Origin: Maribacter zhoushanensis
Lineage (GTDB): Bacteria; Bacteroidota; Bacteroidia; Flavobacteriales; Flavobacteriaceae
Length of the DNA: 64,000 bases
Reading direction: 5' to 3'
Assembly (NCBI RefSeq): GCF_029350975.1
Contig: NZ_JARKMR010000002.1
Coordinates: forward strand, 186,001-250,000
Shown: piece by piece, positions 2,002 to 54,533 of the stretch
Layout of the letters: each line of letters opens with the position of its first letter
Position numbering within the stretch: position 1 is the first letter of the stretch
Translations under genes and position numbers: made by a program
Notes under the pieces: generated by a model
What the model saw: only the letters and a program-made list of their open reading frames with translations
Database searches by the model: none
What the model was told of the DNA's origin: nothing

Positions 2002-3144
2002 ATGAAAAAAATATCAAACTTTGCAATTTTCACACTACTCTTCGTTAGTAGTTTAACCATAATGGTAGGTACGGTTATAGCACCAGCCTTATCTGGTATT
2101 GTAGACTATAAAAATTTAAGTTTTTCGCCCAGTTGGTTAATTACGTTACCATCTTTAGGTGTAGTAGTATTTGCACCTTTTATTGGTAGGTTGTTAACTA
2201 AAATGAGTGCACTTAAACTATTAACATTTAGTTTAATTCCTTATGCAGTTTTAGGGGTTATAGGGGCATTTATAGACAACCAATATCTTTTAATCTTAGA
2301 TAGATTTTTATTAGGCGGAGCTACAGTGGGGGTACAAGTTTCTGTTACCGCATATATTGCAGCGAAATTTGAAGGTGAGGCACGTATGAAAATGATAGCT
2401 TGGCAGGCTATGTCCATTGAATTAGGAGGTGTTGTTTTTTTAGCCATTGGAGGTGTTCTGGGTGAGTTGTTCTGGCAGTATCCCTTTTACATTTATCTGT
2501 TGGCTTTGGTTTGCTTGCTATTAGTTTTTAAAACATTACCTAAAATCACAAATAAGCTTGATAATGTAGGAACTGTTGCTGAGGTTACTAAGAAAGATAA
2601 ACAACAAGTACGTGTTATATTTTATGCTTCTCTTTTGGCAATGATGCTGTTTTTTATCGGCTTTGTTACATTACCCTTGTATTTACCGTCAACCTTTAAT
2701 TTTACCGAGTCCGAAACGGGGTACCTTATGGCTTTTATTTCTTTGGTAGCTATAATTACAGCAAGTCAAATGCCTAGAATGGTGAAACTACTTAGTGCTG
2801 GTAAAACAGTTGCGTTGGGTTTTATTTTCTTTATGTTAGGTTATTTGGTATTGGCTACTTCGTTGGCTATTCCATTATTGGTACTTACGGCGATATTTAT
2901 TGGTATAGGCTTTGGGTTTACCATTCCTTTATTAAACCACATGATGATAGAGGCAAGTAATGTACAAAATCAAGGAAAGAATCTAGGTCTTTATTCTATG
3001 GCTGTTTTTGGAGGTCAATTTCTTTCCACATTCATTGAATATATATCTAATAACTACGCAGTTATATATATAGTTACTTCATGTTTAGCCTTATTGATCG
3101 GTGTGTTTATCTACTATAAATTTCAAAAAATAAACAAAAACTAG
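2002..3144 (+). CDS. MFS family transporter (putative exporter)
   Basis: Major facilitator superfamily permease of 380 residues, with about twelve hydrophobic segments and a hydrophilic central loop near residues 185-205 (TNKLDNVGTVAEVTKKDKQ) separating the two six-helix halves. The start at 2002 gives a short basic N-terminus (MKKISNF) before helix 1, and a promoter box lies between the two candidate starts. The general look is that of small-molecule or drug efflux proteins, but the substrate is unknown. An AraC-type regulator follows 50 bp downstream, separated by a perfect inverted repeat, so the pair may be an inducible export module. Confidence 0.85.
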   Translation: MKKISNFAIFTLLFVSSLTIMVGTVIAPALSGIVDYKNLSFSPSWLITLPSLGVVVFAPFIGRLLTKMSALKLLTFSLIPYAVLGVIGAFIDNQYLLILDRFLLGGATVGVQVSVTAYIAAKFEGEARMKMIAWQAMSIELGGVVFLAIGGVLGELFWQYPFYIYLLALVCLLLVFKTLPKITNKLDNVGTVAEVTKKDKQQVRVIFYASLLAMMLFFIGFVTLPLYLPSTFNFTESETGYLMAFISLVAIITASQMPRMVKLLSAGKTVALGFIFFMLGYLVLATSLAIPLLVLTAIFIGIGFGFTIPLLNHMMIEASNVQNQGKNLGLYSMAVFGGQFLSTFIEYISNNYAVIYIVTSCLALLIGVFIYYKFQKINKN

Positions 3145-3162
3145 TATTGTTATAATTCTTTT

Positions 3163-3188
3163 TACTTTTATAGTCAGCTATAAAAGTA
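3163..3188. repeat. Perfect 11-bp inverted repeat upstream of the AraC gene
   Basis: The arms tacttttatag (3163-3173) and ctataaaagta (3178-3188) are exact reverse complements with a 4-base centre, tcag. It ends 6 bp before the TTG start of the regulator gene. The arms are AT-rich and no T-run follows, so an operator for autoregulation is more likely than a terminator of the MFS gene. Confidence 0.6.
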
Positions 3189-3194
3189 GAGGTA

Positions 3195-3950
3195 TTGCGC
3201 GACTGGAAGAAAAAAGTTAAAATCGATTTACAATTCGAGTCTAACGACAATTTATTGTCGGATAATTCGATGGGTATTTTTTTAGAACAACATACTAAAA
3301 ATGACTTAATTGTTCATTTTAAGCCTTTAAATGAGGTTTTTAAAACCGAAGATATACAAGGCGTAAATGGAGTTTTATTAAACTTTGAACGCGATTTAAT
3401 TGATGAAGATGATGTAGAATATGCTTTAGATGTAATGTCGTTATTCAACAAATTTCCACAGTTTCATATTAAAGAGGTAAAAGAAGTAAATCAAATAATT
3501 AAAATTATTGAATTACTGAAAGATGAATACCATAGCGATACAGTGTCGTATATTATGCTTAAAACCTTGTTGAAGGTGTTATTGTTAAATCTAATTAGAT
3601 TTCAGAATGAAGAGTTACTACCTCAAGACATTCATCAGAAAAGAGTATTTCAGTTTTTAGAATTAATGGAAGTGAATTTTCTTACCGAAACCAATGCCGA
3701 ATACTATTCAAATAAATTAGGAATTAGTACAAAACGATTAAATCAAGTGCTACAGGATAAATTAAGTTTAACGGCAAAGCAAATTATTCAGCAAAGGCAG
3801 ATTACAGAAGCCAAACGAAAACTGATAAAAAGTGAAATTACCACAAAGGAACTGGCTTTTGAATTAGGTTTTGAATCCATCAGTAGTTTTTCTAGATTTT
3901 TTAAAAAGAATGTAGGGGTAAGTCCAACGCAGTTTAAGGCGTTGAAATAA
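3195..3950 (+). CDS. AraC-family transcriptional regulator
   Basis: Cytoplasmic DNA-binding regulator of 251 residues. The C-terminal 100 residues form the double helix-turn-helix of the AraC/XylS family: KLGISTKRLNQVLQDKL is the first HTH, and TTKELAFELGFESISSFSRFF followed by VGVSPTQF is the second, carrying the family signature. The N-terminal 150 residues resemble a cupin-type ligand-binding region. The frame opens on TTG at 3195; the first in-frame ATG (3270) would cut into the sensor domain, so TTG is preferred. The MFS exporter upstream is the likely target. Confidence 0.85.
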   Translation: MRDWKKKVKIDLQFESNDNLLSDNSMGIFLEQHTKNDLIVHFKPLNEVFKTEDIQGVNGVLLNFERDLIDEDDVEYALDVMSLFNKFPQFHIKEVKEVNQIIKIIELLKDEYHSDTVSYIMLKTLLKVLLLNLIRFQNEELLPQDIHQKRVFQFLELMEVNFLTETNAEYYSNKLGISTKRLNQVLQDKLSLTAKQIIQQRQITEAKRKLIKSEITTKELAFELGFESISSFSRFFKKNVGVSPTQFKALK

Positions 3951-3963
3951 GATGCTAATTCGT

Positions 3964-4500
3964 CTATTTCCGTTGCAACTTTAAAATCTCTTCGTAAGGG
4001 TCTCCTTTTAGTCCTAATAGTTTAGCAAATGCAGGTTCTGTTTTTAAACCGCTAGCTTTTAGTTTTATAATTTCTTGTTGAAAGCTGTTCCCTTTTTCTT
4101 GTAAAATTGCATGTTCAGTAATCATATGCAAGTAGGCGTTTTGTTGCTTGGTGGGAATGTTTTGTGCAAATAGTTCAATCAAAAAATTCTCTGTCCTAAA
4201 TTCGGCAATAGTAACTTTTTTGTCGTTCTGCTTTCTTGTGTAGAGATGAAAGCCTTGCATTTTAGAAAAGTGATGAGTTACAACAGACTTGAATTCGTTA
4301 TGGTCTTTACATTTACAAATAATATCAATATCACTTTCAGGTAAATCTATTTCAATGGGTATTGTACCTGTTACAATTGGATGGTACGGTTTAAGGATTT
4401 CTAGAATTTTATGCTGTATAATATCGGTATAAGCCTTTTGTTGTCGCTCATTTCCAAGTTTTAAATAATCAATATTATCAAAATTGATTTTCAAGTACAT
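3964..4500 (-). CDS. DUF4269 family protein (nucleotidyltransferase-like)
   Basis: A 178-residue soluble protein matching the DUF4269 family by its overall pattern. The stretch TGTIPIEIDLPESDIDIIC resembles the metal-binding G-S...D-x-D core of the nucleotidyltransferase fold, with Asp residues in the SDIDI motif, so a nucleotide-transfer function is conceivable but unproven. The C-terminal part (KLLGLKGDPYEEILKL) is also typical of the family. It is convergent with the AraC gene, 13 bp away, and follows a fumarylacetoacetate-hydrolase-like gene across a long inverted repeat. Confidence 0.8.
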   Translation of the reverse strand: MYLKINFDNIDYLKLGNERQQKAYTDIIQHKILEILKPYHPIVTGTIPIEIDLPESDIDIICKCKDHNEFKSVVTHHFSKMQGFHLYTRKQNDKKVTIAEFRTENFLIELFAQNIPTKQQNAYLHMITEHAILQEKGNSFQQEIIKLKASGLKTEPAFAKLLGLKGDPYEEILKLQRK

Positions 4501-4520
4501 TTATTTGTTAATGATATATA

Positions 4521-4565
4521 ATCACGATTTATATATACACATGTAATGCAACTATAAATCGTGAT
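4521..4565. repeat. Perfect 13-bp inverted repeat between two minus-strand genes
   Basis: The arms atcacgatttata (4521-4533) and tataaatcgtgat (4553-4565) are exact reverse complements with a 19-base centre. They lie in the 80-bp gap between the FAH-family gene and the DUF4269 gene. There is no clear T-run on either side, so it may be an operator or an mRNA hairpin rather than an intrinsic terminator. Confidence 0.6.
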
Positions 4566-4580
4566 CTATAAATTTATTAT

Positions 4581-5195
4581 TTAAATCATTTTAAAATCTA
4601 GCAATAGCTCTCCTTCAATAGAAGCTTGTAAATGATCGCCTTTAAATGTTTCACCGGCACCTATGGCAGGGGTTCCTGTAAATATCATATCGCCTGGGTT
4701 CAATGTCATAAATGTAGAAACAAAACTGATGATTTCGGCAAAATTATAAATGATATAACCAGTATTACCAACCTGTTTTTTTTCTCCGTTGATTACCAAA
4801 TCAAAATTGATATTATCTAATTCGGGAAAATCGCTTACCGGTTTAAAACCAGCTATAGGTGATGCACCGTCAAAGCCTTTGGCCAGTGCCCATGGTCCTT
4901 TTTTATCTCTACTTGCCGTAAGTACATCTTTTGCAGTGTAATCAATACCAATACCTATTTCAGATATGAATGAATTTGCATCTTCCAGTGCAACATTTTT
5001 AGCGGTCTTTCCAATTTTAACAACTAATTCTACCTCATATATTAATTGGTTGGTAATAGCAGGAAACACTACATCTTTACTGTCAGTGACTAGCGAAGAA
5101 TCTGGTTTTGTAAAAATGAGTTGCACATCATTCTTTAATCCGTCAATTTCAGATTTGTCAACTACGTAATTCTTGCCTATACCTATAATTTTCAT
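4581..5195 (-). CDS. Fumarylacetoacetate hydrolase family protein
   Basis: Probable C-C bond hydrolase or decarboxylase of the FAH superfamily, 204 residues, about the size of single-domain members such as YcgM/FAHD1. The metal-binding pattern is visible: YEVELVVKIGK with its two Glu, then the IGIDYTAKDV region, the PWALAKGFDGASPI stretch and the closing PGDMIFTGTPAIGAG. The substrate is unknown; family members act on acylpyruvates, oxaloacetate or catechol-pathway intermediates. No catabolic operon surrounds it. Start is ATG. Confidence 0.88.
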   Translation of the reverse strand: MKIIGIGKNYVVDKSEIDGLKNDVQLIFTKPDSSLVTDSKDVVFPAITNQLIYEVELVVKIGKTAKNVALEDANSFISEIGIGIDYTAKDVLTASRDKKGPWALAKGFDGASPIAGFKPVSDFPELDNINFDLVINGEKKQVGNTGYIIYNFAEIISFVSTFMTLNPGDMIFTGTPAIGAGETFKGDHLQASIEGELLLDFKMI

Positions 5196-5314
5196 GTTTG
5201 TTTTGTTAAAATGTTAGATGGTAAAATTAATCATTATACCAAGCATAGCGGTCTATTTTAATTGAAATCATACAAATGCTACTATTTGTTTCAAGACTTA
5301 AAATAGTAGTTTAC

Positions 5315-6157
5315 TTATGGTATGAAGTTTAATTCTTTCAAAGCAGCAAGCGTAACTTCTTTCCTGGTATTTATAAAATCTTTTAGGTTTACTTTACTTG
5401 TTTTAGGTTCTAAATTAGTAGCAAAGAAATACACTTGGTCTTTAGCTTCTATAAAGCCAACAAACCAGCCGTTGTAATGGTTATTGTTGTTAGATAATCC
5501 TGTTTTACCGCTGAGGTTGTAGTTGGTTGTTTTTGTAACTAACATAACATCTTGCATAATACTTTTTGTTCTCGCTGATATTGGTAGTAGGTCATCGTAG
5601 TAGCGTTTTAGAAAATCTATTTGCTGTATTTGGCTTATTCTAGAATCACCTTCTAGCCAAAAATTGGTAATATTTGTTGTATCAATTTTTAAATTTCCGT
5701 AGTGTAATTTTTTAACGTACTCAGTCATACGTTTTGTTCCAATAGTTGCGGCCACTTCTTGGTAACATGGTACGCATGAATATTGAAAAGCATCACGTAA
5801 TACTAAATCTTGTTCCCAAAGAGATGACCATTTATCTTCACCGTCCCATTTAAAGATTGTGCTGTCACTTTTAATAACACCGGTTTCTAACCCTATGATA
5901 GTATTGGCTATTTTAAATGTAGAAGCCGGTAAATTACCTTGTGTAGCCCAGTCAAAGTCATTGGAATAGTAAGTATCTTGACTGGGGTCGTAAATTAAGA
6001 TAGAACCAATAACGTTAGAACTATCTATGATAGTTTGAAATTCGGACTTATTGGTATGATTGCTTTTCTTTTCTAATTTAGCTGTGACGGCTGATTTTTT
6101 TTCGTTTTTGCAGGAAGTAATACATATGACCAAAAAAATCAGGAAGTGTAATTTCAT
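5315..6157 (-). CDS. Class D (OXA-type) beta-lactamase, lipoprotein
   Basis: Serine beta-lactamase of class D, 280 residues, which hydrolyses beta-lactams through an acyl-enzyme. Motifs in order: STFK at residues 79-82 (nucleophile Ser79 and the Lys that is carboxylated in this class), SCV at 127-129 in the YSCVPCYQEVA context that corresponds to the OXA SxV motif, WLEGDSRIS at 167-175 with QQIDFL after it, KTG at 218-220 and WFVGF at 231-235. The N-terminus ends in ITSC (Cys16), so the enzyme is lipid-anchored, which is unusual but known among environmental class D enzymes. The second SxV residue is Cys instead of the common Ala. Spectrum cannot be predicted. It stands alone beside an esterase-like gene. 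Confidence 0.88.
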   Translation of the reverse strand: MKLHFLIFLVICITSCKNEKKSAVTAKLEKKSNHTNKSEFQTIIDSSNVIGSILIYDPSQDTYYSNDFDWATQGNLPASTFKIANTIIGLETGVIKSDSTIFKWDGEDKWSSLWEQDLVLRDAFQYSCVPCYQEVAATIGTKRMTEYVKKLHYGNLKIDTTNITNFWLEGDSRISQIQQIDFLKRYYDDLLPISARTKSIMQDVMLVTKTTNYNLSGKTGLSNNNNHYNGWFVGFIEAKDQVYFFATNLEPKTSKVNLKDFINTRKEVTLAALKELNFIP

Positions 6158-6275
6158 TTAATAAGTGAATTTTACAAAATTTCAGGTATAAATATAAGCA
6201 AAGTGCTTATGTATCAGTTAAATCAATTTGCTATGCAATTAGATAAGAGTAAGTAAATTTTAAGTCTAAGGTAGT

Positions 6276-7526
6276 TTACTTCATTTCCTCAATTGGGGTA
6301 TTCGCTTTTGAGTCTGATATTAAAATAGCATAATCAATAAACTCCGTTGTAGATTTTCCTCTTACCGCATCTTCGTTAGATGTGTCATCTTGCATAACAA
6401 CCTCAATTAAATCGGGTGTTTTGTCGTTATATGGGCTGTTTGTAGAATTTAATTTAAACATGGTCATGTCAGATATTTTAGTATTTTTTAAGTGGTCAAT
6501 ACCTAAAAAATATTCCTTTTCATAATCGCCAATACCAAATCCGCCTTCTGTGGTGTAAGATTTATAGTTTCCTTCGTCATCATACACATGGTCCCAGAGT
6601 ACTCGGCTTTCTGTTAAATAGCCAATAATAGATATAATTCTCTCTTTCTTGTACACTTTGTTTTCAATAAGTTGCGTAAAAAATGACGGATTATTGCCTT
6701 CTCGTTCCTTCTCTAAATGAAAGAATCCGAATCTTGCAAATTGTGTGTTGTTCTTAAAATTATAGAGCGAATCTAAGTGAACATAATTATTATAAATCAC
6801 TTCCTCTCTGTTTGTCTTAGGATTGAATGAATACTTTAAATCTTGAATAATATGTTCAAAAACATAGCTGTTCTTCATAGAATTTAAAAATACTGAAGAA
6901 TTTGTCTCATAGTATGTTACAAAAGCCTTCATGATCCCTTTAGAGTAACTATTGTAATAAGGCGAATAATCTGTAGTATCTAAAGCGACCATCTGTTCTA
7001 ATTTTTTTACAGCAGGGTGTTTTATATGGTCGGTATTTAGTAGTTCTAAAATATGTTTAGCAGTGTATTTATAGGTTACCAATTGATCAATACCTATAAC
7101 GGTCAATTTATCTTCTTTAGGTAGTTGATCGTTTAAGATTTTAAGGTTTTTCCATTTTTGATAGGTTTCTACACTGCGTTCCTGTGGCACTCGCATGCCA
7201 TAGTTGCTTACCAAGTCTTTTAATAATAATGTATCACCGGTTTGTAAGTAGGTATTGAAGAAGTGACCAAGGCTAAAATCGGTCTCAGGTAAATAGTATT
7301 CAATGATGCCTTCTTTAGTTAAAGAAGTAAGAAGGGAATGCTCAACTGTTTCTGTTTTAGCACTACCGTGATATGCACCAAAACCAATGATATTAAAATC
7401 TTGTTGCGGAAATTTGAATTCCCTATTGGTAATATCAATGCGGTTATTTTTGAGATATTCCGCTTTTGATTGCGCGTAGTTGTAAATAGATACTAATGTA
7501 AATATTGCTGTAAAAATTCTTTTCAT
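6276..7526 (-). CDS. Secreted erythromycin-esterase-like (EreA/ChaN superfamily) protein
   Basis: A 416-residue exported protein with distant similarity to the erythromycin esterase superfamily. The start at 7526 was preferred to 7553 because it opens on a signal peptide (MKRIFTAIFTLVSIYNYAQ). The FGAYHGSAKTE stretch aligns with the family's G-E-x-x-H-G-S-x-E motif (catalytic His here about residue 53), and YYLPETDFS with the following acidic motif. A later His sits in RFGFFHLEKE. The usual first Glu of the motif is replaced, so activity on macrolides is doubtful; another hydrolase or a metal/heme-linked function is possible. It is transcribed toward the beta-lactamase gene, 118 bp away. Confidence 0.6.
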   Translation of the reverse strand: MKRIFTAIFTLVSIYNYAQSKAEYLKNNRIDITNREFKFPQQDFNIIGFGAYHGSAKTETVEHSLLTSLTKEGIIEYYLPETDFSLGHFFNTYLQTGDTLLLKDLVSNYGMRVPQERSVETYQKWKNLKILNDQLPKEDKLTVIGIDQLVTYKYTAKHILELLNTDHIKHPAVKKLEQMVALDTTDYSPYYNSYSKGIMKAFVTYYETNSSVFLNSMKNSYVFEHIIQDLKYSFNPKTNREEVIYNNYVHLDSLYNFKNNTQFARFGFFHLEKEREGNNPSFFTQLIENKVYKKERIISIIGYLTESRVLWDHVYDDEGNYKSYTTEGGFGIGDYEKEYFLGIDHLKNTKISDMTMFKLNSTNSPYNDKTPDLIEVVMQDDTSNEDAVRGKSTTEFIDYAILISDSKANTPIEEMK

Positions 7527-7931
7527 GGTTTGGTTTTCATAAGAGATAACCAATTTTCAGAATTGTTACAGCAACTCATTCAGAAATTATTTACAAAATG
7601 ATATAAAGAAAGAATTAGTAAAGGCTACCGATAATTTGAGTTTTCTTTTCAAAAATCATCTCTTTACCATTTTTCAATTCATTGTGCTTTTCTAAAGTGT
7701 TCAACTTAGTGTTGTTCTTGATAGAATATTTTTCCTGTGAACTGTCAACTTGCATAAATTTTAATTTAGATGAATATCTAAGGTAGAAATTAATTAGCTG
7801 AAAATCATTTAATTACAACTTAATAGTGCCGTAACGGCTAAGAAATGTGAATATGGTATTTATAGGCGGGTATAATTACGAGATTAATTTTAAGAGGTAC
7901 TTTTTTTGAGGATTTGAGATATGAAGATTAG
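7527..7931. other. 405-bp stretch without an assigned gene
   Basis: AT-rich spacer between the esterase-like gene and a small membrane-protein gene, both on the minus strand. It contains one plausible 46-codon minus-strand frame, listed separately. I see no tRNA, riboswitch or strong hairpin here. Confidence 0.6.
7615..7755 (-). CDS. Possible 46-residue hydrophilic protein
   Basis: An ATG-to-TAA frame encoding a Lys/Glu/Asn-rich, highly charged peptide that begins MQVDSSQEKYSIKNN and ends TQIIGSLY. The amino-acid make-up is that of an ordinary small flavobacterial protein and it fills an otherwise empty spacer. There is no exact promoter box and no recognisable domain or signal peptide. It may be chance; conservation in relatives would decide. 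Confidence 0.3.
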   Translation of the reverse strand: MQVDSSQEKYSIKNNTKLNTLEKHNELKNGKEMIFEKKTQIIGSLY

Positions 7932-8297
7932 TTAGAATTTATTTTTAACAAGCTTGATGATGAAATTGGGCATTATTAGACCAATAGAAATTAATAGAGT
8001 AGAGTATAATTCAAAAGGTTCACCAAGTAAATATTCAGGTATTAAAGAATTAAAATGTTTAGCGGAATATGTCATAATAAAAAGCCCCGTTCCAACTGAT
8101 AATAAAACAAATAGAAGCACGGTTGAAATATCAATATATAATTCTTTTAACTTAAATTCTGTTCGGGTTGTATTGTATAACATTCCGAAGAAAGGTATAG
8201 CCGCTATGGCGATATAATCAAGTGTATTTGTTGAAATCTCAAAAAAATAATCGGTGAATTTTACTAGATTTTCAGTTAATAGAAGTTGAATACGCAA
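7932..8297 (-). CDS. Small membrane protein of unknown function
   Basis: A 121-residue protein with three hydrophobic segments (around residues 28-42, 57-77 and 95-113) and a basic C-terminus (KLVKNKF), so probably an inner-membrane protein with a short cytoplasmic tail. The frame opens on TTG at 8297; a stop lies six codons upstream and the first ATG (residue 39) would delete the first membrane segment, so TTG is the best choice. I do not recognise the family. An overlapping frame on the other strand is judged a shadow. Confidence 0.5.
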   Translation of the reverse strand: MRIQLLLTENLVKFTDYFFEISTNTLDYIAIAAIPFFGMLYNTTRTEFKLKELYIDISTVLLFVLLSVGTGLFIMTYSAKHFNSLIPEYLLGEPFELYSTLLISIGLIMPNFIIKLVKNKF

Positions 8298-8418
8298 AAT
8301 ATGCGTAGTGGTGTTTTAATGAATGTAGTGTAGCCTTAAGCATTTAAAACGATTTGATAGTTCTGATTAATTTTTGTGAAATAGAAGTATTAAAATCTAA
8401 ATTGTATACCGGAAAATT

Positions 8419-8868
8419 TCATAGAACCTTCTTAAAACAAACACTATTCTTCATATGCTCATAAGGGGCGTAGTTATCGATAACGATGTAATTATTCTTT
8501 TTGTAGAGTGCAATGGCCTCAGGCTGGCGTAGTCCAGTTTCAAGAACGGCGTGTGAGTAGTTTAATTCTTTTGCCCATTCTTCTAATACTATTAGTGCTT
8601 TAGAGGCAATACCCTTACCACGAAAATCGGGTTGTACGTACATTCGTTTTATTTCTACGGAGTCTTTGCTAAACTCCTTAAAAGCACCACAGGCAACAAG
8701 GGTTTCATCCGAATAAAAGACAACACAGTTTTTCAAAGCATCAATACCATTGAATTGTGCATAAAAAGCATTTTCATCTCCATCCCTTAATGCTAAATCG
8801 GCATCAAGTAAAGCTACTAATTCTTTGAAGTTTTGGTTATCGCTAGAGCAACGTTTATAGTAAAGCAT
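8419..8868 (-). CDS. GNAT family N-acetyltransferase
   Basis: Cytoplasmic acetyl-CoA-dependent N-acetyltransferase of 149 residues. The acetyl-CoA-binding motif A is RMYVQPDFRGKGIASKAL (Q-x-x-R-G-x-G-x-A type) near residues 92-109, followed by LEEWAKELNY and the LYKKNNYIVIDNY motif B. The acceptor substrate is unknown. It is the last gene of a minus-strand set with the split 5'-nucleotidase genes (14-bp gap), probably co-transcribed. Confidence 0.88.
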   Translation of the reverse strand: MLYYKRCSSDNQNFKELVALLDADLALRDGDENAFYAQFNGIDALKNCVVFYSDETLVACGAFKEFSKDSVEIKRMYVQPDFRGKGIASKALIVLEEWAKELNYSHAVLETGLRQPEAIALYKKNNYIVIDNYAPYEHMKNSVCFKKVL

Positions 8869-8882
8869 AAGAGGTCTCTTTT

Positions 8883-9788
8883 TTAGACTTGAATTGTGTA
8901 ACCGTTTGCGTTAACAGTGCTGTTGTCAAAATAAAAATCAATTCTACCAAGGTTTACTCCAAAACATCCTACTTGATTTACCAATACATCACGGTCAGCA
9001 GCATTAGTAACAATGGTGGGTTTGTCCAAAAATGTGTGGGTATGACCACCAATAATTAAATCGGTGTATTTAGTCCTTTTAGCAAGTTTTAAATCATCTG
9101 GCTTTTGAGAGCTATATTCATACCCTAAGTGAGAAAGGCAAATGACCAAATCGCATTTTTCTTCTTCTTTAAGTTTGGTTTCCATATCGGTAGCCAGTTC
9201 ATAAGGGTCAAGAAATACGGTCTCTTTATAGAGCTGTTTTGTTACCAGTCCGTCTAACTTAATTCCTAATCCGTATACACCAACTTTAATTCCGTCTTTC
9301 TCATAAATTTTATAAGGCTGTGTTAATCCGTCTAAAACTGTATTGGAAAAATCGTAATTAGCACTAATGAAATTAAATTTAGCGTAAGGCATTTGAGCTA
9401 ATAACCCATCAATACCATTATCAAAATCATGATTACCAATAGTAGTGGCATCATAATTAAGCATGCTCATTAATTTAAATTCTAGCTCGCCACCGTAAAA
9501 GTTAAAGTATGGAGTACCTTGAAAGATATCACCGGCATCAAACAAAAAAGTATGTGGATTTTCTTTTCTAATACTATCAACCAAACCCGCTCTGCGCGCC
9601 AAACCACCCAATCCGGGAAAATCTGCATGATCGTTAGGGAAAGCATCTACATGACTATGAACATCATTGGTGTGTAAAATAATAATATGTTTCTTTTTAG
9701 ATGCATTACAAGAACTTAGTCCTAACCCACCAAGGGTTAGAAGACTAGAAGATGCTGCAGTATTTCGAATAAATTTTCTTCTTTCCAT
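8883..9788 (-). CDS. Metallophosphatase, N-terminal half of a 5'-nucleotidase
   Basis: Calcineurin-like metallophosphatase of 301 residues that corresponds to the catalytic N-terminal domain of UshA/5'-nucleotidase. The two-metal motifs are visible: HTNDVHSHV, DAGDIFQGTPYF, TIGNHDFDNG and GGHTHTF. The N-terminus has a twin-arginine-type signal (MERRKFIRNT) leading to LSSC, Cys27, so it is probably Tat-exported and lipidated. The C-terminal substrate-binding domain is absent here and is encoded by the gene immediately upstream (1-bp gap). Together they would release phosphate from nucleotides in the periplasm or at the surface. Confidence 0.88.
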   Translation of the reverse strand: MERRKFIRNTAASSSLLTLGGLGLSSCNASKKKHIIILHTNDVHSHVDAFPNDHADFPGLGGLARRAGLVDSIRKENPHTFLFDAGDIFQGTPYFNFYGGELEFKLMSMLNYDATTIGNHDFDNGIDGLLAQMPYAKFNFISANYDFSNTVLDGLTQPYKIYEKDGIKVGVYGLGIKLDGLVTKQLYKETVFLDPYELATDMETKLKEEEKCDLVICLSHLGYEYSSQKPDDLKLAKRTKYTDLIIGGHTHTFLDKPTIVTNAADRDVLVNQVGCFGVNLGRIDFYFDNSTVNANGYTIQV

Positions 9789-39647: not shown

Positions 39648-40286
39648 TTATTCTGATAAAAACTCTAAATCTCCACTTACGTAAGTGTTTTTATTAACAT
39701 CATAAATAGATGCTTCATCATCCTTATCAAGGTAAACTCCCCAAAATTCAGAATAAGATTTTGGAGCTGTATTTAGTTGATTTTCATTTGCATCTATATT
39801 CTCAATAATATCTTCAAATATAGGAACGAAAATCTCGTATGGTTTTTGAGTAAGACCTCTTGTTAAAAACACATAATTAAATGCGATCTGCTTTAGAATA
39901 TCATTTAATTGAGATGGTATACTTTTATCGTAGATGCGCTTTATAACAATGCTTGTGTCATTTAAAAAGAATGTAAGTTCTTCGATATCAATATTGTGTT
40001 GATTATTTAAATCTAGTATATCTAAGGCGCTTTGTAATGGAGATTCTTCTCTTCCGTTATTTCCCCATCTACCCGTATTAAAATGAGATAGTAATTCCAG
40101 TAAATCTAAATTACAAGATACCTCTAAAACTAAACTTATAGAATTGAAGGTGATGTGTTTATTATTCAGCTTTACGCTAGAGAAATAATGAAATCCAATT
40201 GAGCTTAGAAATTCATCTATACCAACAATATCCTTGGTATATTCTAATTTTGAATTATTGATGAAATTTTCGTAATTAAAAGGCAT
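39648..40286 (-). CDS. Hypothetical protein (212 aa)
   Basis: A soluble, acidic protein without signal peptide or membrane segment. It has alternating alpha/beta stretches and a polar NTGRWGNNGREESPLQSA loop near residues 70-87; no family is recognised. The pattern is reminiscent of small immunity-type or SMI1-like proteins, but there is no adjacent toxin gene and this is speculation. It is convergent with glyA and is followed upstream by a 154-bp gap before a response regulator gene. Confidence 0.6.
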   Translation of the reverse strand: MPFNYENFINNSKLEYTKDIVGIDEFLSSIGFHYFSSVKLNNKHITFNSISLVLEVSCNLDLLELLSHFNTGRWGNNGREESPLQSALDILDLNNQHNIDIEELTFFLNDTSIVIKRIYDKSIPSQLNDILKQIAFNYVFLTRGLTQKPYEIFVPIFEDIIENIDANENQLNTAPKSYSEFWGVYLDKDDEASIYDVNKNTYVSGDLEFLSE

Positions 40287-40440: not shown

Positions 40441-41109
40441 TTAAAGGAAACCTCTAGTTTTGGCTTCGTTGATTAGAGCTAAATCGTTACCATTTTTAAC
40501 GTCAAATAAAGCTTTAAGCTGTCTTTTTCTTGCTTCAACTGTCGTATTTGCAGAACCAATAAGTGGGGCAATATCCCTAGTATGAATACCTTGAGAGAGA
40601 TGATAAAGAATTTTTTGATCTTGCTCATCAATAACAATATCTGTAGACATTCTACGGCGTATAGCAGATAGAGCACTTGCAGTATAATATGGAGATTCGT
40701 TTACTATGGTTTCTACCATAGCTTTTAGAGACATTTCATCAATTTCGGATTTAACCATATACCCATCAGGATTTACGGTTTTGAAAATATTGTTGATTCT
40801 GTAATTATCGCTATAAGAAGACATGAAAACAACTTTAGATTTAGGTACTTCTGCTCGTGCAACAATTCCTAAATCAATTCCTGTTCTTGTGTCTTTTGAT
40901 TCTGGTGAGAATAATTGAATATCCAGAAGAATAATATCATAAGGCACTGCGCGCTTAGAATTTTCAATTTTTGTTTTGCCTTTTTCAAAATTGGTGGCAA
41001 TTTCTACCTTGACATTAAAATCTGAAAAGTCAGAGTCTTCAAGGATATATTTATATCCTAAAGCTGTCATTTCGTGGTCATCTACCGCTAAAATTCGTAC
41101 AGTGTTCAT
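40441..41109 (-). CDS. NarL/LuxR-type response regulator
   Basis: A 222-residue regulator. The receiver domain has the acidic pair in ILAVDDHEM, phospho-acceptor Asp63 in IILLDIQL, Ser/Thr in VFMSSYSD and the invariant Lys in GYMVKSEID. The C-terminal HTH (about 155-215) contains LSQGIHTRDIAPLIGSANTTVEARKRQL, a LuxR-like recognition segment. The sensor kinase gene is 39 bp upstream in the same direction, so the two form a pair. Confidence 0.9.
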   Translation of the reverse strand: MNTVRILAVDDHEMTALGYKYILEDSDFSDFNVKVEIATNFEKGKTKIENSKRAVPYDIILLDIQLFSPESKDTRTGIDLGIVARAEVPKSKVVFMSSYSDNYRINNIFKTVNPDGYMVKSEIDEMSLKAMVETIVNESPYYTASALSAIRRRMSTDIVIDEQDQKILYHLSQGIHTRDIAPLIGSANTTVEARKRQLKALFDVKNGNDLALINEAKTRGFL

Positions 41110-41148
41110 AGTTTACGATTCTAATGTAATTTACTAAACGTTTAGAAA

Positions 41149-43221
41149 CTAGTGATTATTATTGCTAGTTACTTTAATATCTATTTTAATGGGAATATTT
41201 AAGGTTATGGTGGTGCCTTTTCCTTCGTTAGAATCAATATGAAAGGTACCCTTTAACTTGTTAATTCTAGAAGTGATATTTCTTATGCCTATGCCTTTTT
41301 TTCCTTTGTTTACGTTATATCCAATTCCATTATCGCTCATAATAACATTAAAATCATCTTCATTTCTATAAAAAGTAACCTCAAAATAAGAGCATTTTGA
41401 GTGTTTTATAGCGTTTTGAAAAGTTTCTTGAATAATACGGTAAACATTAATTTTTATATCACCAGCTAAACTATCCCAATTTTCGTCTTCATTAAAATGG
41501 AAATAGGTTTTAATTGCTTTGTTTTTATTGTTTGCAAGAAGTGTTTCGACAGAATCGGTAAAATTATTTATTTTTTGATATGCACTATGACTTAACTCGT
41601 GAGAAATAGATCTGATCTCATTCTCAATTTCTTGTAACGATCCAAGTGCTTTTGATTTCTCTAGTATAGCTTCTTCTGTAGCCCGCTTATTTAAACCGGT
41701 TAAAATCATGCGGGCGCCAAGCATCTTGCCAAGAACACCATCATGTAACTCTTCTGAAATTCGCTTTTGTTCTAGGCGTTTAACTTCGTCTACTTTTTGT
41801 TTTTGCGTTAACATTAAGTTGAAGATTTCTTGATTGTTTGCCTGCTGTTGTTGGTCAAAACGAAGCTTTTGGTTTTTTGCTCGCTGATTGATAATAATGT
41901 AAATAGATAGACCAAGTAGAAAGAAACCGGTTGCTATGCCTATCCAAATTTGTTTTTGTTTTGATAAAGTTTCTTTTTCACTTTCAAGTTCTATGTTTTC
42001 TGCAATGAATTCATCTGTTTCAAAACGTATACGTGCAAATTTATTTTGTTGTTTACGTTCTTCTGTTTGTAGACTGTCATTTAACGCTGTAAATTTTTTG
42101 AAATATTCTGAAGCATTTTGCTTGTCTAAAATTGCTAAGTATTGCCAAGTTTTTAATAGCTGCTGATTTGAATTTCCGGCATAAGCTAAGTTTTCAGATT
42201 CTTTGGCTTTAATTATAGCGCTTAAAGTGTCATTGGCAAAAGCCTTATATTCTGCGTAATTATAATAACTTGTAGATAAACTACCTAAATCATTTTCTTT
42301 CTTTTTAATGTCAATTGCTTTGATTAAAAGGTTTTCAACATCTATGGTGTCTTTGTTATACAATTTTGAAGTTGCAAGGTTGCTTATTGCCTTGCCGTAT
42401 AGATTGGGGTTTTCAGCAAACAAGTTATTTGTACTTAAAACTTTCTCAAAATTTTCAATTGCTTGTGGGTACTGTTTGTTGTTCCTATAGGTAACTCCAA
42501 TGTTATTAATTAGACTGGCTTCGTCAATATTGGAATAGGAAGTCTTTTTTAGATAAAATAAGGCTTCGTTGTAATAAGCTAAGGATTTATCATATTCCTT
42601 TAAATCATTCAAAACGATACCTAAAAGATTATAACTGCTGAATATTTGTTTTTCGTCCTTTATCGATTTAAAATGTTCAATAGCTTTTATGGTATTTGCT
42701 TCGCTGCCTACATAATCTTTAATTTTCATTTGAATGCCGGCCATGTATAAATACATACGACCAATAAGTGCTTTGTCTCCAATACCGGTAAAAATGTTGA
42801 GTGCCTCTGAGTAATAATAAAATGCACTATCTTTTACAACATGGTTATCAAAAAAATACGCTAGGTCCCAATAGGCATATCCTATAGCGGTAGAATCTTT
42901 GATTTGCTTATTGACTAATATGGCTTCTTTATTTATTTTACGAAATATTAAACTATCTGAAATAAATTGTTGGTTGAATGAAAGGCTTGAAAAATATCTG
43001 GATTTCAATGTGTCATTAGACGTATGCTTAACTAGTTGAAAGGCTTTATTTTGTAATTCTAATTTTCTTTTTGGATTAGCATTATAACTTTCATCTATCC
43101 AAATAGATATACTGTCATTTTCTTGTTTTTCTTCTATAGGCTGTTTTGCGGGTTCAGTTTTAGAACAACTAAGGCTTAGTAGTAGGAAAGATGATATTAA
43201 TGATAAATAGTACTTATTCAA
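41149..43221 (-). CDS. TPR-containing sensor histidine kinase (HisKA_3)
   Basis: A 690-residue kinase. An N-terminal hydrophobic signal ends in SLSC (Cys19, imperfect lipobox). Residues about 50-385 are TPR repeats (YNLLGIVLNDLKEYDKSLAYYNEALFYL and following), probably periplasmic. A single membrane helix is near 425-445, then a short linker and the HisKA_3 domain with His493 in ISEELHDGVLGKM. The ATPase domain has QETFQNAIKHS and GKKGIGIRNI. The start is TTG: a stop lies four codons upstream and no early Met exists. It partners the NarL-type regulator downstream. Confidence 0.9.
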   Translation of the reverse strand: MNKYYLSLISSFLLLSLSCSKTEPAKQPIEEKQENDSISIWIDESYNANPKRKLELQNKAFQLVKHTSNDTLKSRYFSSLSFNQQFISDSLIFRKINKEAILVNKQIKDSTAIGYAYWDLAYFFDNHVVKDSAFYYYSEALNIFTGIGDKALIGRMYLYMAGIQMKIKDYVGSEANTIKAIEHFKSIKDEKQIFSSYNLLGIVLNDLKEYDKSLAYYNEALFYLKKTSYSNIDEASLINNIGVTYRNNKQYPQAIENFEKVLSTNNLFAENPNLYGKAISNLATSKLYNKDTIDVENLLIKAIDIKKKENDLGSLSTSYYNYAEYKAFANDTLSAIIKAKESENLAYAGNSNQQLLKTWQYLAILDKQNASEYFKKFTALNDSLQTEERKQQNKFARIRFETDEFIAENIELESEKETLSKQKQIWIGIATGFFLLGLSIYIIINQRAKNQKLRFDQQQQANNQEIFNLMLTQKQKVDEVKRLEQKRISEELHDGVLGKMLGARMILTGLNKRATEEAILEKSKALGSLQEIENEIRSISHELSHSAYQKINNFTDSVETLLANNKNKAIKTYFHFNEDENWDSLAGDIKINVYRIIQETFQNAIKHSKCSYFEVTFYRNEDDFNVIMSDNGIGYNVNKGKKGIGIRNITSRINKLKGTFHIDSNEGKGTTITLNIPIKIDIKVTSNNNH

Positions 43222-43256
43222 AAATGTGTTTTAATATTATAATAAAACCAAGGTAT

Positions 43257-43294
43257 AAAAAAAGCCTTTAACGTTTACGTTAAAGGCTTTTTTT
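43257..43294 (-). terminator. Strong intrinsic terminator of the 58-aa peptide gene
   Basis: The arms aaaaaaagcctttaacg (43257-43273) and cgttaaaggcttttttt (43278-43294) are exact reverse complements of 17 bp with a ttta loop. On the minus strand the stem is followed by seven T. It lies 21 bp after the stop of the small peptide gene and 36 bp before the kinase start, so it separates the two transcripts. Confidence 0.9.
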
Positions 43295-43315
43295 GTATTT
43301 AATTTTTTTTTATCT

Positions 43316-43492
43316 CTATGCAATTTTTTTCGGTGGAATTCTATCTCCTAGAGGAGCGTCGCAATCGTTACATGTCAATGCATTTGAAATATCGTTCATA
43401 AATTCAAACTCGTCAGCTGTGTTTTCGATTGCTACTGTAGCCATACCTAATGCCATTATTGCTACTGCTAAAATACTTGTTACTTTTTTCAT
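43316..43492 (-). CDS. Small secreted peptide, 58 aa, with CxxC
   Basis: A short gene overlooked by length filters. It opens on ATG with a signal-peptide-like N-terminus (MKKVTSILAVAIMALGMATVA) and continues through an acidic stretch (ENTADEFEFMNDISN) to ALTCNDCDAPLGDRIPPKKIA. The Cys-Asn-Asp-Cys pair could form a disulfide or bind a metal or a lipid. A perfect terminator follows and a palindrome sits upstream, so it is a genuine transcription unit. Its position between a TPR kinase and a LytTR regulator raises the idea of a secreted signal or a sensed protein. A 96-codon plus-strand frame over it is a shadow. Confidence 0.8.
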   Translation of the reverse strand: MKKVTSILAVAIMALGMATVAIENTADEFEFMNDISNALTCNDCDAPLGDRIPPKKIA

Positions 43493-43523
43493 ACTGTGTG
43501 TTTTTAGGGGTTTTTGGTTTATT

Positions 43524-43541
43524 ATAGTACCAAAGTACTAT
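43524..43541. promoter_or_regulatory. Palindrome upstream of the 58-aa peptide gene
   Basis: The arms atagtac (43524-43530) and gtactat (43535-43541) are exact reverse complements around caaa. It lies 31-49 bp before the peptide gene start, where a promoter would be. The minus strand reads TAGTACTTTGGTACTAT, which includes a weak -7-like TACTTTG. A regulator binding site is plausible. Confidence 0.5.
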
Positions 43542-43628
43542 CGCTACGTGAGTTGCGAGTACAGTATTTTAAAGTTTAAGTAATTGAGTAGGTTCTATGA
43601 GTATATGACCTAGTTTTGAGAGAATTCT

Positions 43629-44390
43629 TTAGTTTAATGAAGAAAGTGTATTTTTTGAGAGGATAGCTTTAAGGTTTTCCATATTCTCACGGTAAGATTT
43701 AGAGAAAGGAATATTTTCTTTAACCGCTTTAATAGTACATATAGATTTGCCAAAGTTTATACGAGAAACATAATTGGTGTTCACAATATAGCTTTGGTGA
43801 ATACGCATAAAGTTTTCAGGTAGCGATTTTTCAAAAGTCTTTAACGTTTTATAGGCGTTGATAATTGTATCATCTTTCATGAAAAATTCTGTGGTATTAT
43901 TATCCGCTTTTAAATAAAGTATGTCATTTGTATTTAAATACTGAAAATCATTGTAAGATTTTAAACACAATGTGATTGGTTTCTTTGATTTTGGAATTTT
44001 TTTTTGAAGCTTTAACAATGATTTGCGAATTTCAAATTCATTAAAGGGTTGTAGCCAATAATCAAAAAAGCCATTTTTTATAGCATCATAAGCGTAGTTT
44101 TTTGTTGAGGCAATACCAATAAAAATTGGCAGCTCTTTTAGGTATTGATGCATTTCTGTTATCATTAAAAATACAGAAGCATAATCATTGTTTAAATTGA
44201 TAAAAACAATATCAGGAGCATACTTTAAAATATCGTTTAACCCATCAGAAGGGTTGCTTGTGGTATTGATACACTCAAAATTATCATACTCGTCCAAAAA
44301 TGCATGTAACTGCAAATTTGAAACAGCATCAGAATCTATTATGGTGTATGTGTAATTCAAAAAAATACTCTTTACTACGAATTTAAACAT
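43629..44390 (-). CDS. LytTR-type regulator with degenerate receiver domain
   Basis: A 253-residue DNA-binding regulator. The N-terminal domain aligns with response-regulator receivers, but the phospho-acceptor Asp is Asn65 (DIVFINLN) and the invariant Lys is Gln114 (YWLQPF), so it cannot be phosphorylated in the usual way. The C-terminal LytTR domain (about 140-245) is intact: DILYLKADNNTTEFFM, FEKSLPENFMRIHQSYIVNTNYVSRI. No kinase partner is adjacent; it lies 136 bp upstream of the small peptide gene in the same direction. It may respond to a ligand or to another protein instead of phosphorylation. Confidence 0.85.
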   Translation of the reverse strand: MFKFVVKSIFLNYTYTIIDSDAVSNLQLHAFLDEYDNFECINTTSNPSDGLNDILKYAPDIVFINLNNDYASVFLMITEMHQYLKELPIFIGIASTKNYAYDAIKNGFFDYWLQPFNEFEIRKSLLKLQKKIPKSKKPITLCLKSYNDFQYLNTNDILYLKADNNTTEFFMKDDTIINAYKTLKTFEKSLPENFMRIHQSYIVNTNYVSRINFGKSICTIKAVKENIPFSKSYRENMENLKAILSKNTLSSLN

Positions 44391-53960: not shown

Positions 53961-54533
53961 ATGAAAAAATGGACATCCCTCGTGTCCCTGTGCACCCTTT
54001 TTTTAGGGCTACAAACCTTTGCACAGGACAATGCAATTGAATTTAAATTCCAGAATCTTATCTCTAATATAAAGTCTGAAAAATCCATTTTGGAACGAAC
54101 TGAGTCTTTTGCAAATCATTCTTCTTTATTAAACGCACTTAGGGCAACAAACTTAGACAAGGTCTTAGATTATTCAGGAGAATTTACAATTTTTGCACCT
54201 TCTAATATGGCGTTTGAAAAACTATCTAAGGCTACTATTGATAAGTTATATGACCCTGAAAATAGGAAGGTATTAAAAGATATGCTTTCTTATCATATCA
54301 TAGCAGATAAATTATCTGCCTCTAAAATGTTAAAAGCAATGTGTAGGGGTAATGGCATTGCAAAATTTACTACCATACAAGGAGAAAAGATTACAGCTAC
54401 TATGCAAGGTATAGATATTGTTCTAACAGACGTATCTGGAAACAGCGCAACTATAACCACCGCAGATTCAAATCAATCTAACGGCATCATTCATGAAGTT
54501 GATACCGTTTTTGTTCCAGAAAAAATGCTTTAA
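53961..54533 (+). CDS. Secreted fasciclin-domain protein
   Basis: A 190-residue exported protein: signal peptide MKKWTSLVSLCTLFLGLQTFAQ, then a single fasciclin (FAS1) domain (about 50-185). The two conserved boxes are FTIFAPSNMAFEKL (H1-type) and the ITTADSNQSNGIIHEVDTVFVPE end (H2-type), with LSYHIIADKLSAS between. FAS1 domains mediate adhesion between cells and surfaces. It is convergent with pheT with no gap. A 7-bp inverted repeat (aaatcga / tcgattt at 53906-53927) lies 34 bp upstream. Confidence 0.88.
   Translation: MKKWTSLVSLCTLFLGLQTFAQDNAIEFKFQNLISNIKSEKSILERTESFANHSSLLNALRATNLDKVLDYSGEFTIFAPSNMAFEKLSKATIDKLYDPENRKVLKDMLSYHIIADKLSASKMLKAMCRGNGIAKFTTIQGEKITATMQGIDIVLTDVSGNSATITTADSNQSNGIIHEVDTVFVPEKML

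Follow-up and report, generated by a model that had tools for sequence, protein, structure and literature searches.

A candidate peptide signal and its putative TPR kinase receptor in Maribacter zhoushanensis and other marine flavobacteria

Within a 64,000-nucleotide stretch of the Maribacter zhoushanensis genome (hereafter the window), four minus-strand genes lie together, encoding a LytTR regulator, a small secreted peptide precursor, a TPR-containing histidine kinase and a NarL-type response regulator. Inspection of the open reading frames (ORFs) and the sequence places all four where the original prediction, made from the letters of the window, had put them. In marine flavobacteria the set has the look of a bacterial peptide signal with its receptor, of a kind not described before. 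Its features, from the LytTR gene to the response regulator gene, are:

43629..44360, minus strand: LytTR regulator with a pseudo-receiver, 243 amino acids from a probable TTG start at 44360 (Pfam LytTR, 5e-19; aligned loci)
43519..43540, minus strand: promoter-like site for the peptide gene, conserved (114 upstream regions compared by eye)
43501..43517, minus strand: CCAAAAACCCCTAAAAA element ahead of the peptide start (by eye; conserved in Maribacter)
43316..43492, minus strand: secreted peptide precursor, 58 amino acids (ORF, conservation, precursor comparison)
43256..43289, minus strand: terminator-like hairpin 3' of the peptide gene (sequence; hairpin comparison across 70 loci)
41149..43221, minus strand: histidine kinase with a TTG start at 43221 and a signal- or lipobox-like N-terminus (Pfam, NCBIfam, structure model, alignment)
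40441..41109, minus strand: NarL-type response regulator with an intact receiver (Pfam, NCBIfam, alignment)

Gene order across the Flavobacteriaceae

The peptide was detected in 33 of 36 genomes of the genus, the window's own genome counted, and the three without a match are assemblies of 360-590 contigs. As one of its refuting results, the original prediction had set beforehand that it would fall if the peptide gene were not conserved beside the kinase in any relative; in fact the two genes adjoin each other both within the genus and in many genera beyond it. In all 32 genus relatives fetched, the peptide gene lies between the genes for the TPR kinase and the LytTR regulator in a syntenic region, with the kinase of one relative (L060) in pieces. 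A profile of the LytTR protein matched 70 of 249 genomes of the family at E<=1e-60, and 63 of these were inspected (the own genome, two already examined and 60 more). A small secreted ORF follows the LytTR gene at 39 of the 40 best new loci (L097-L135, from 38 genus codes besides the window's), among them L117, where it begins within a longer frame that the ORF-picking rule had rejected. The TPR kinase comes next in 38 of the 39, the exception being a contig of 3 kilobases (L104). The fortieth locus (L136) and 20 weaker loci form a looser group. Between LytTR gene and TPR kinase a small secreted ORF is present in L136 and in 17 of the 20, and L142 has one there whose frame is broken; L141 and L150, with a related LytTR gene and a response regulator in another gene context, possess neither TPR kinase nor small secreted ORF. 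Among named loci, taken as the best 80 of 293, the ORF is present in 77 (75 by rule and two, L209 and L229, by eye), and in the other three the contig stops 128-395 bases past the LytTR gene; the closest LytTR relative of the window in this named set, at 91%, is that of Maribacter ulvicola. The four-gene order of LytTR regulator, precursor, TPR kinase and NarL-type regulator thus recurs in many Flavobacteriaceae genera.

One could propose that these genes are neighbours without a functional tie, held by general synteny, and within the genus the surroundings from clpB or glyA to an SDR gene are indeed syntenic too. However, the set recurs where glyA is not nearby (18 of the 20 weaker loci), with the ORF in its place in 17 of those 20, and the two loci that lack the TPR kinase also lack the ORF. 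We regard this proposal as highly improbable.

Beyond the family no LytTR orthologue was found among 295 genomes of the class, where the profile gave two matches at 1e-45, the own genome and one genome of the same family. A second copy was likewise not found in the own genome, where the next-best LytTR (E 5e-24) and kinase (3e-26) matches fall far below the locus itself, and none of five other kinase loci viewed by eye has a small secreted ORF of the precursor type. Weak matches to the peptide elsewhere (for example window 53961-54071, E 0.018; and in genome G028, where the stretch is partly masked) look like leader resemblance or unrelated frames and were set aside. A chance ORF is ruled out by the conservation described here together with the selection within repeat arrays described below.

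The LytTR ORF as first called spans 43629-44390, and the gene more probably starts at TTG 44360 than at 44390, because in many relatives the alignable protein begins there with TTG, GTG or ATG. The kinase start was corrected to the TTG at 43221; TTG starts are common for the kinase and LytTR genes of these loci. Gene duplications were seen at two loci. One (L116 in G209, oriented 5244-9517) has a single precursor followed by two tandem TPR kinases, in effect a natural duplication of the putative receptor but not of the peptide, and another (L111 in G090, oriented 2889-4744) has a tandem pair of LytTR genes ahead of a six-copy precursor. Between glyA and the response regulator gene the window also encodes a conserved protein of 212 amino acids (39648-40286) that belongs to no known family in Pfam or NCBIfam.

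A precursor with a variable, often repeated core

The window precursor consists of an export signal (residues ~1-20), a spacer (21-40), a CNDC box (41-44) and a single variable core (45-58). Across 114 distinct precursors the export signal is lipobox-like in 66, while most Maribacter have a plain one. By eye, many of the cores follow a common plan, with a CDxC or TDGD/TGGD box, a few variable residues and an Arg beside Asp, Glu or Arg; the mature part contains CxxC in 51 of the 114 and the Arg motif in 96, and some cores have neither a CDxC-type nor a TDGD-type box. No family cut-off in Pfam or NCBIfam is passed by the 58-amino-acid ORF. When six precursors, arrays or single-core, were compared with Pfam, one match exceeded its cut-off (Opy2, 24.5 vs 22.1 bits), which we judged spurious since no single stretch passes alone; the other matches were weaker and all below cut-off. 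With NCBIfam, two of 26 precursors gave one weak match each, one of them to a PG1828-family lipoprotein at 0.0023.

In 21 of the 114 precursors the core is tandemly repeated, by repeat score, in 2 to 10 copies. Zobellia barbeyronii has ten copies of a 14-residue unit and Z. uliginosa one, Z. russellii has seven core copies, Maribacter polysiphoniae about seven and M. thermophilus three, and an Arenibacter (L229) six. Within the 21 arrays the pooled proportions of synonymous (pS) and nonsynonymous (pN) differences are 0.404 and 0.030, a pN/pS of 0.075; pN is zero in 11 arrays and the remaining ratios lie at 0.03-0.24. The copies thus differ chiefly at synonymous sites, and therefore each copy has been maintained as a peptide and not all are fresh products of slippage. 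A comparison of 11 closely related single-core precursors gave pN/pS values of 0.32 for the leader, 0.30 for the spacer, 0.05 for the CxDC box and 0.51 for the core, whose variable part reaches 0.61; the core thus evolves faster than the leader, although this does not prove positive selection.

These data bear on whether the small protein is cut at all. An uncut lipoprotein in the periplasm or at the surface could instead serve the TPR kinase as accessory subunit or inhibitor, with the repeats altering valency only. The frequent lipobox-like signal fits such a protein, as does the lack of a scored array in 93 of the 114 precursors, and conserved adjacency to the kinase would be equally expected. 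Yet whole short cores have been duplicated many times with their sequence almost unchanged, with no fewer than 10 changes of array state (15 arrays) on a 98-row tree built from LytTR, kinase domain and regulator, and the core is the fastest-evolving part, which would be unusual for a fixed subunit interface. On the same tree the core type changes at another rate than the lipobox, with at least 10 changes for CxxC (46 rows) and at least 6 for the lipobox (54 rows). We consider an intact lipoprotein unlikely, though more probable than the other rival readings.

The composition of the cores raises a different question, namely whether they are metal-binding motifs, Asp-rich TDGDD or CxxC, with a kinase that senses metal or the metal-loaded protein. 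CDxC and TDGD boxes swap for each other at least 10 times, and one array weakly matches a zinc-binding phage family, below its cut-off. Calcium- or metal-repeat families all stayed below cut-off in the six precursors, however, and it is the residues between the boxes that vary most, which chelation alone does not explain; nor would it account for the cores without either box. A metal sensor thus seems quite improbable. Little more probable, in our judgment, is that the three regulators merely control the peptide as a secreted product, antimicrobial or otherwise. The peptide is secreted and variable, with its own terminator and regulators on both sides, but no immunity, export or modification gene is evident beside it, the locus is vertical, syntenic and single-copy, and the cores are hydrophilic and acidic.

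The expression signals of the precursor gene also appear conserved, its upstream regions being alike by eye across the 114 loci. With up to 3 mismatches allowed, the Maribacter-type promoter motif matches the own genome once, at the peptide gene itself, so no regulon was found by way of the motif. The CCAAAAACCCCTAAAAA element likewise matches exactly once in the own genome, with 9 more sites at 2 mismatches vs 2 in a reversed control, and by eye a shorter form, ACCCCTAAA, precedes the precursor start in many other genera. The terminator proposed for the peptide gene in the original prediction is borne out by a terminator-like hairpin 3' of the gene. Of 70 distinct loci, 63 have such a hairpin separating precursor from kinase, vs 1 of 70 after mononucleotide shuffling, and the precursor therefore probably has its own, stronger transcript.

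The TPR kinase, the two regulators and a likely pairing of core and sensor

TPR repeats and HATPase_c exceed their Pfam cut-offs in 41149-43221, in agreement with the predicted TPR kinase, while HisKA_3 falls just under; the phosphoacceptor His is kept in 98 of 98 aligned loci. A structure model of the kinase, built with 43 sequences (mean predicted local distance difference test score 82, predicted template-modelling score 0.56), has helical repeats at residues ~37-365, the TPR sensor, followed by a long helix (367-470) that contains an apparent membrane stretch (~425-446), and the kinase part occupies residues 487-680. Conservation by block ranges from 0.41 to 0.61 in residues 31-390 and from 0.50 to 0.86 in residues 451-660. 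The N-terminus is lipobox-like in 76 of the 98 loci, which is odd for a histidine kinase, and signal-like in some others, and the TPR part is therefore placed, provisionally, outside the inner membrane. The best 50 of 1626 fold matches (Foldseek) include LGN-peptide complexes, Rap with and without pheromone, and NprR. Because TPR folds resemble one another, such matches speak for a capability and not for a ligand.

The two regulators differ in their receivers. The LytTR protein, a LytTR domain with a receiver below the Pfam cut-off, was predicted to have a dead receiver, and the alignment agrees: the phosphoacceptor column holds N in 92 loci, H in 5 and D in 1, and the lysine column K in 7, so that Asp is lost in 97 and Lys in 91 of the 98. 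It is therefore a pseudo-receiver regulator. The NarL-type regulator (40441-41109) keeps both Asp and Lys in 98 of 98 loci; in Pfam it matches a receiver, under the cut-off, and GerE very weakly, and NCBIfam relates it to MctR/NarL-type regulators, below their cut-offs, in line with the class first assigned to it.

One Maribacter-group locus, L039, has a core identical to that of the window, yet upstream of LytTR it is a more distant relative. From the core to kinase residue ~170 the window's DNA matches L039 at 84-93% identity and M. ulvicola (L043) at 62-67%, whereas from kinase residues ~196 to 271 it tracks L043 at 80-95%, and further on L044 and L046 at 83-87%. The protein changes partner in the same way, with 87-88% identity to L039 and 54% to L043 over residues 31-170, and 71% and 90%, respectively, over 171-240. 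By these identities the window's core and kinase residues 1 to ~175 are one mosaic block in common with the more distant L039. More broadly, in 33 loci of the CxxC type the core correlates with the sensor given kinase, regulator and LytTR distances (r=0.37, p=0.001; partial Mantel test, lenient with related genomes), and its correlations with kinase domain, regulator and LytTR are not significant.

Several results speak against a clean pairing. The leader, too, correlates with the sensor in these 33 loci (r=0.18, p=0.002); over all 98 loci the core correlates at 0.19 with the sensor, 0.16 with the regulator and 0.10 with the kinase domain; and among 19 close relatives sensor sub-windows give r of 0.09-0.31 vs 0.42 for kinase residues 541-600. 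A site test on nine independent pairs reached a net of at least 4 in 4 of 763 sensor tests, vs 0 of 404, 1 of 289 and 1 of 316 elsewhere, and a net of 5 nowhere. L041 and L043 have much of the sensor in common and different cores. Finally, because core and kinase N-terminus are adjacent, a single tract could bring both along even if nothing functional linked them. On balance the sequence comparisons suggest that core and sensor are likely paired.

A proposed signalling circuit and its relation to known systems

We favor a model, which we hold to be probable though well short of assured, in which the locus is a peptide signalling circuit whose secreted signal is sensed by the TPR kinase. The precursor would be exported by the general secretory route, in plain or lipid-anchored form, and proteases from genes outside the locus would excise its C-terminal core, single as in the window or in 2 to 10 tandem copies, to give a short acidic or Cys-x-x-Cys peptide. 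Outside the inner membrane this peptide would bind the neighbouring kinase at its TPR solenoid and alter kinase activity, up or down, with the NarL-type regulator receiving phosphate from the kinase. Control of the peptide promoter probably lies with the LytTR protein, whose receiver has lost its phosphorylation residues, and would close a feedback loop. Core and kinase N-terminus may diversify and exchange jointly, yielding strain- or species-specific signal types for use between cells. Adjacency, tandem cores, selection on each copy, a variable core and the mosaic of core and kinase N-terminus all support the peptide-linked signalling locus of the original prediction; which of the roles the peptide has, signal, sensed protein or output, is a matter of inference. 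The precursors without a scored repeat count against the circuit, as does the apparent lack, at the locus, of a gene for a protease, an exporter or a modifying enzyme, judged from the Pfam matches and synteny of its neighbours. A secreted signal nonetheless fits the evidence better than an accessory lipoprotein, an antimicrobial or a metal-binding protein.

Should this model hold across the family, the loci would form an undescribed class of cell-cell communication in Bacteroidota, with multi-copy secreted peptides, strain-specific cores, TPR kinases that sense them outside the inner membrane and an exchangeable specificity cassette of core and sensor, a wider claim to which we would give an even chance. 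To our knowledge no peptide communication has been established in Bacteroidota, and we found no description of the gene set among the matches listed in the literature searched, a scope that leaves out most subscription journals and all preprints. With this locus, marine genera that can be cultured (Maribacter, Zobellia, Arenibacter and others) offer a genetically encoded candidate ligand beside a periplasmic-type TPR kinase, and the repeat arrays found in nature hint at the boundaries of the cores.

Among periplasmic TPR histidine kinases, FimS of the Porphyromonas gingivalis FimS/FimR system has a signal described as unknown, and its authors consider a polypeptide ligand (PMC11053733). NCBIfam FimS matches the window kinase at E 6e-15, but with 54.5 bits vs a cut-off of 600 the kinase is not a FimS equivalog. 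Fungal repeat pheromone precursors, such as alpha-factor and Kex2-processed repeat proteins, are likewise secreted with repeated identical cores (PMC6339444); they are, however, eukaryotic, and their receptor and protease are unrelated to those here. A RiPP (ribosomally synthesized and post-translationally modified peptide) system would be expected to bring a modifying enzyme or a peptidase-containing exporter; neither was found at the locus, whose conserved neighbours include glyA, clpB and the SDR gene, the rest of the genome being unsearched.

The closest parallels are the RRNPPA systems of Bacillota (Rap-Phr, NprR, PlcR, AimR) and agr. RRNPPA systems set a TPR receptor beside a small Sec-exported propeptide, and some of these propeptides carry several pheromone copies (PMC9765709; PMC11343458). 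The window, too, has a small exported propeptide next to the gene of the putative receptor, and in relatives the core is sometimes repeated. An RRNPPA receptor is cytoplasmic and its peptide is re-imported, whereas here the TPR part, by its predicted topology, belongs to a membrane histidine kinase with a signal-like N-terminus. The agr system shares a histidine kinase for a secreted peptide, as predicted here. Its hypervariable region spans peptide and sensor (PMC10482373); the window shows a clear mosaic block of this extent, with mixed statistics across the wider set of loci. Unlike agr, with its thiolactone or lactone peptide, the present locus has linear, unmodified-looking cores, a TPR solenoid sensor and NarL-type and pseudo-receiver LytTR regulators, and no AgrB-like processing protein was found among six neighbours (Pfam, NCBIfam) or the syntenic genes. 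The locus falls outside both systems but would operate as an RRNPPA-style propeptide coupled to a kinase of the agr type.

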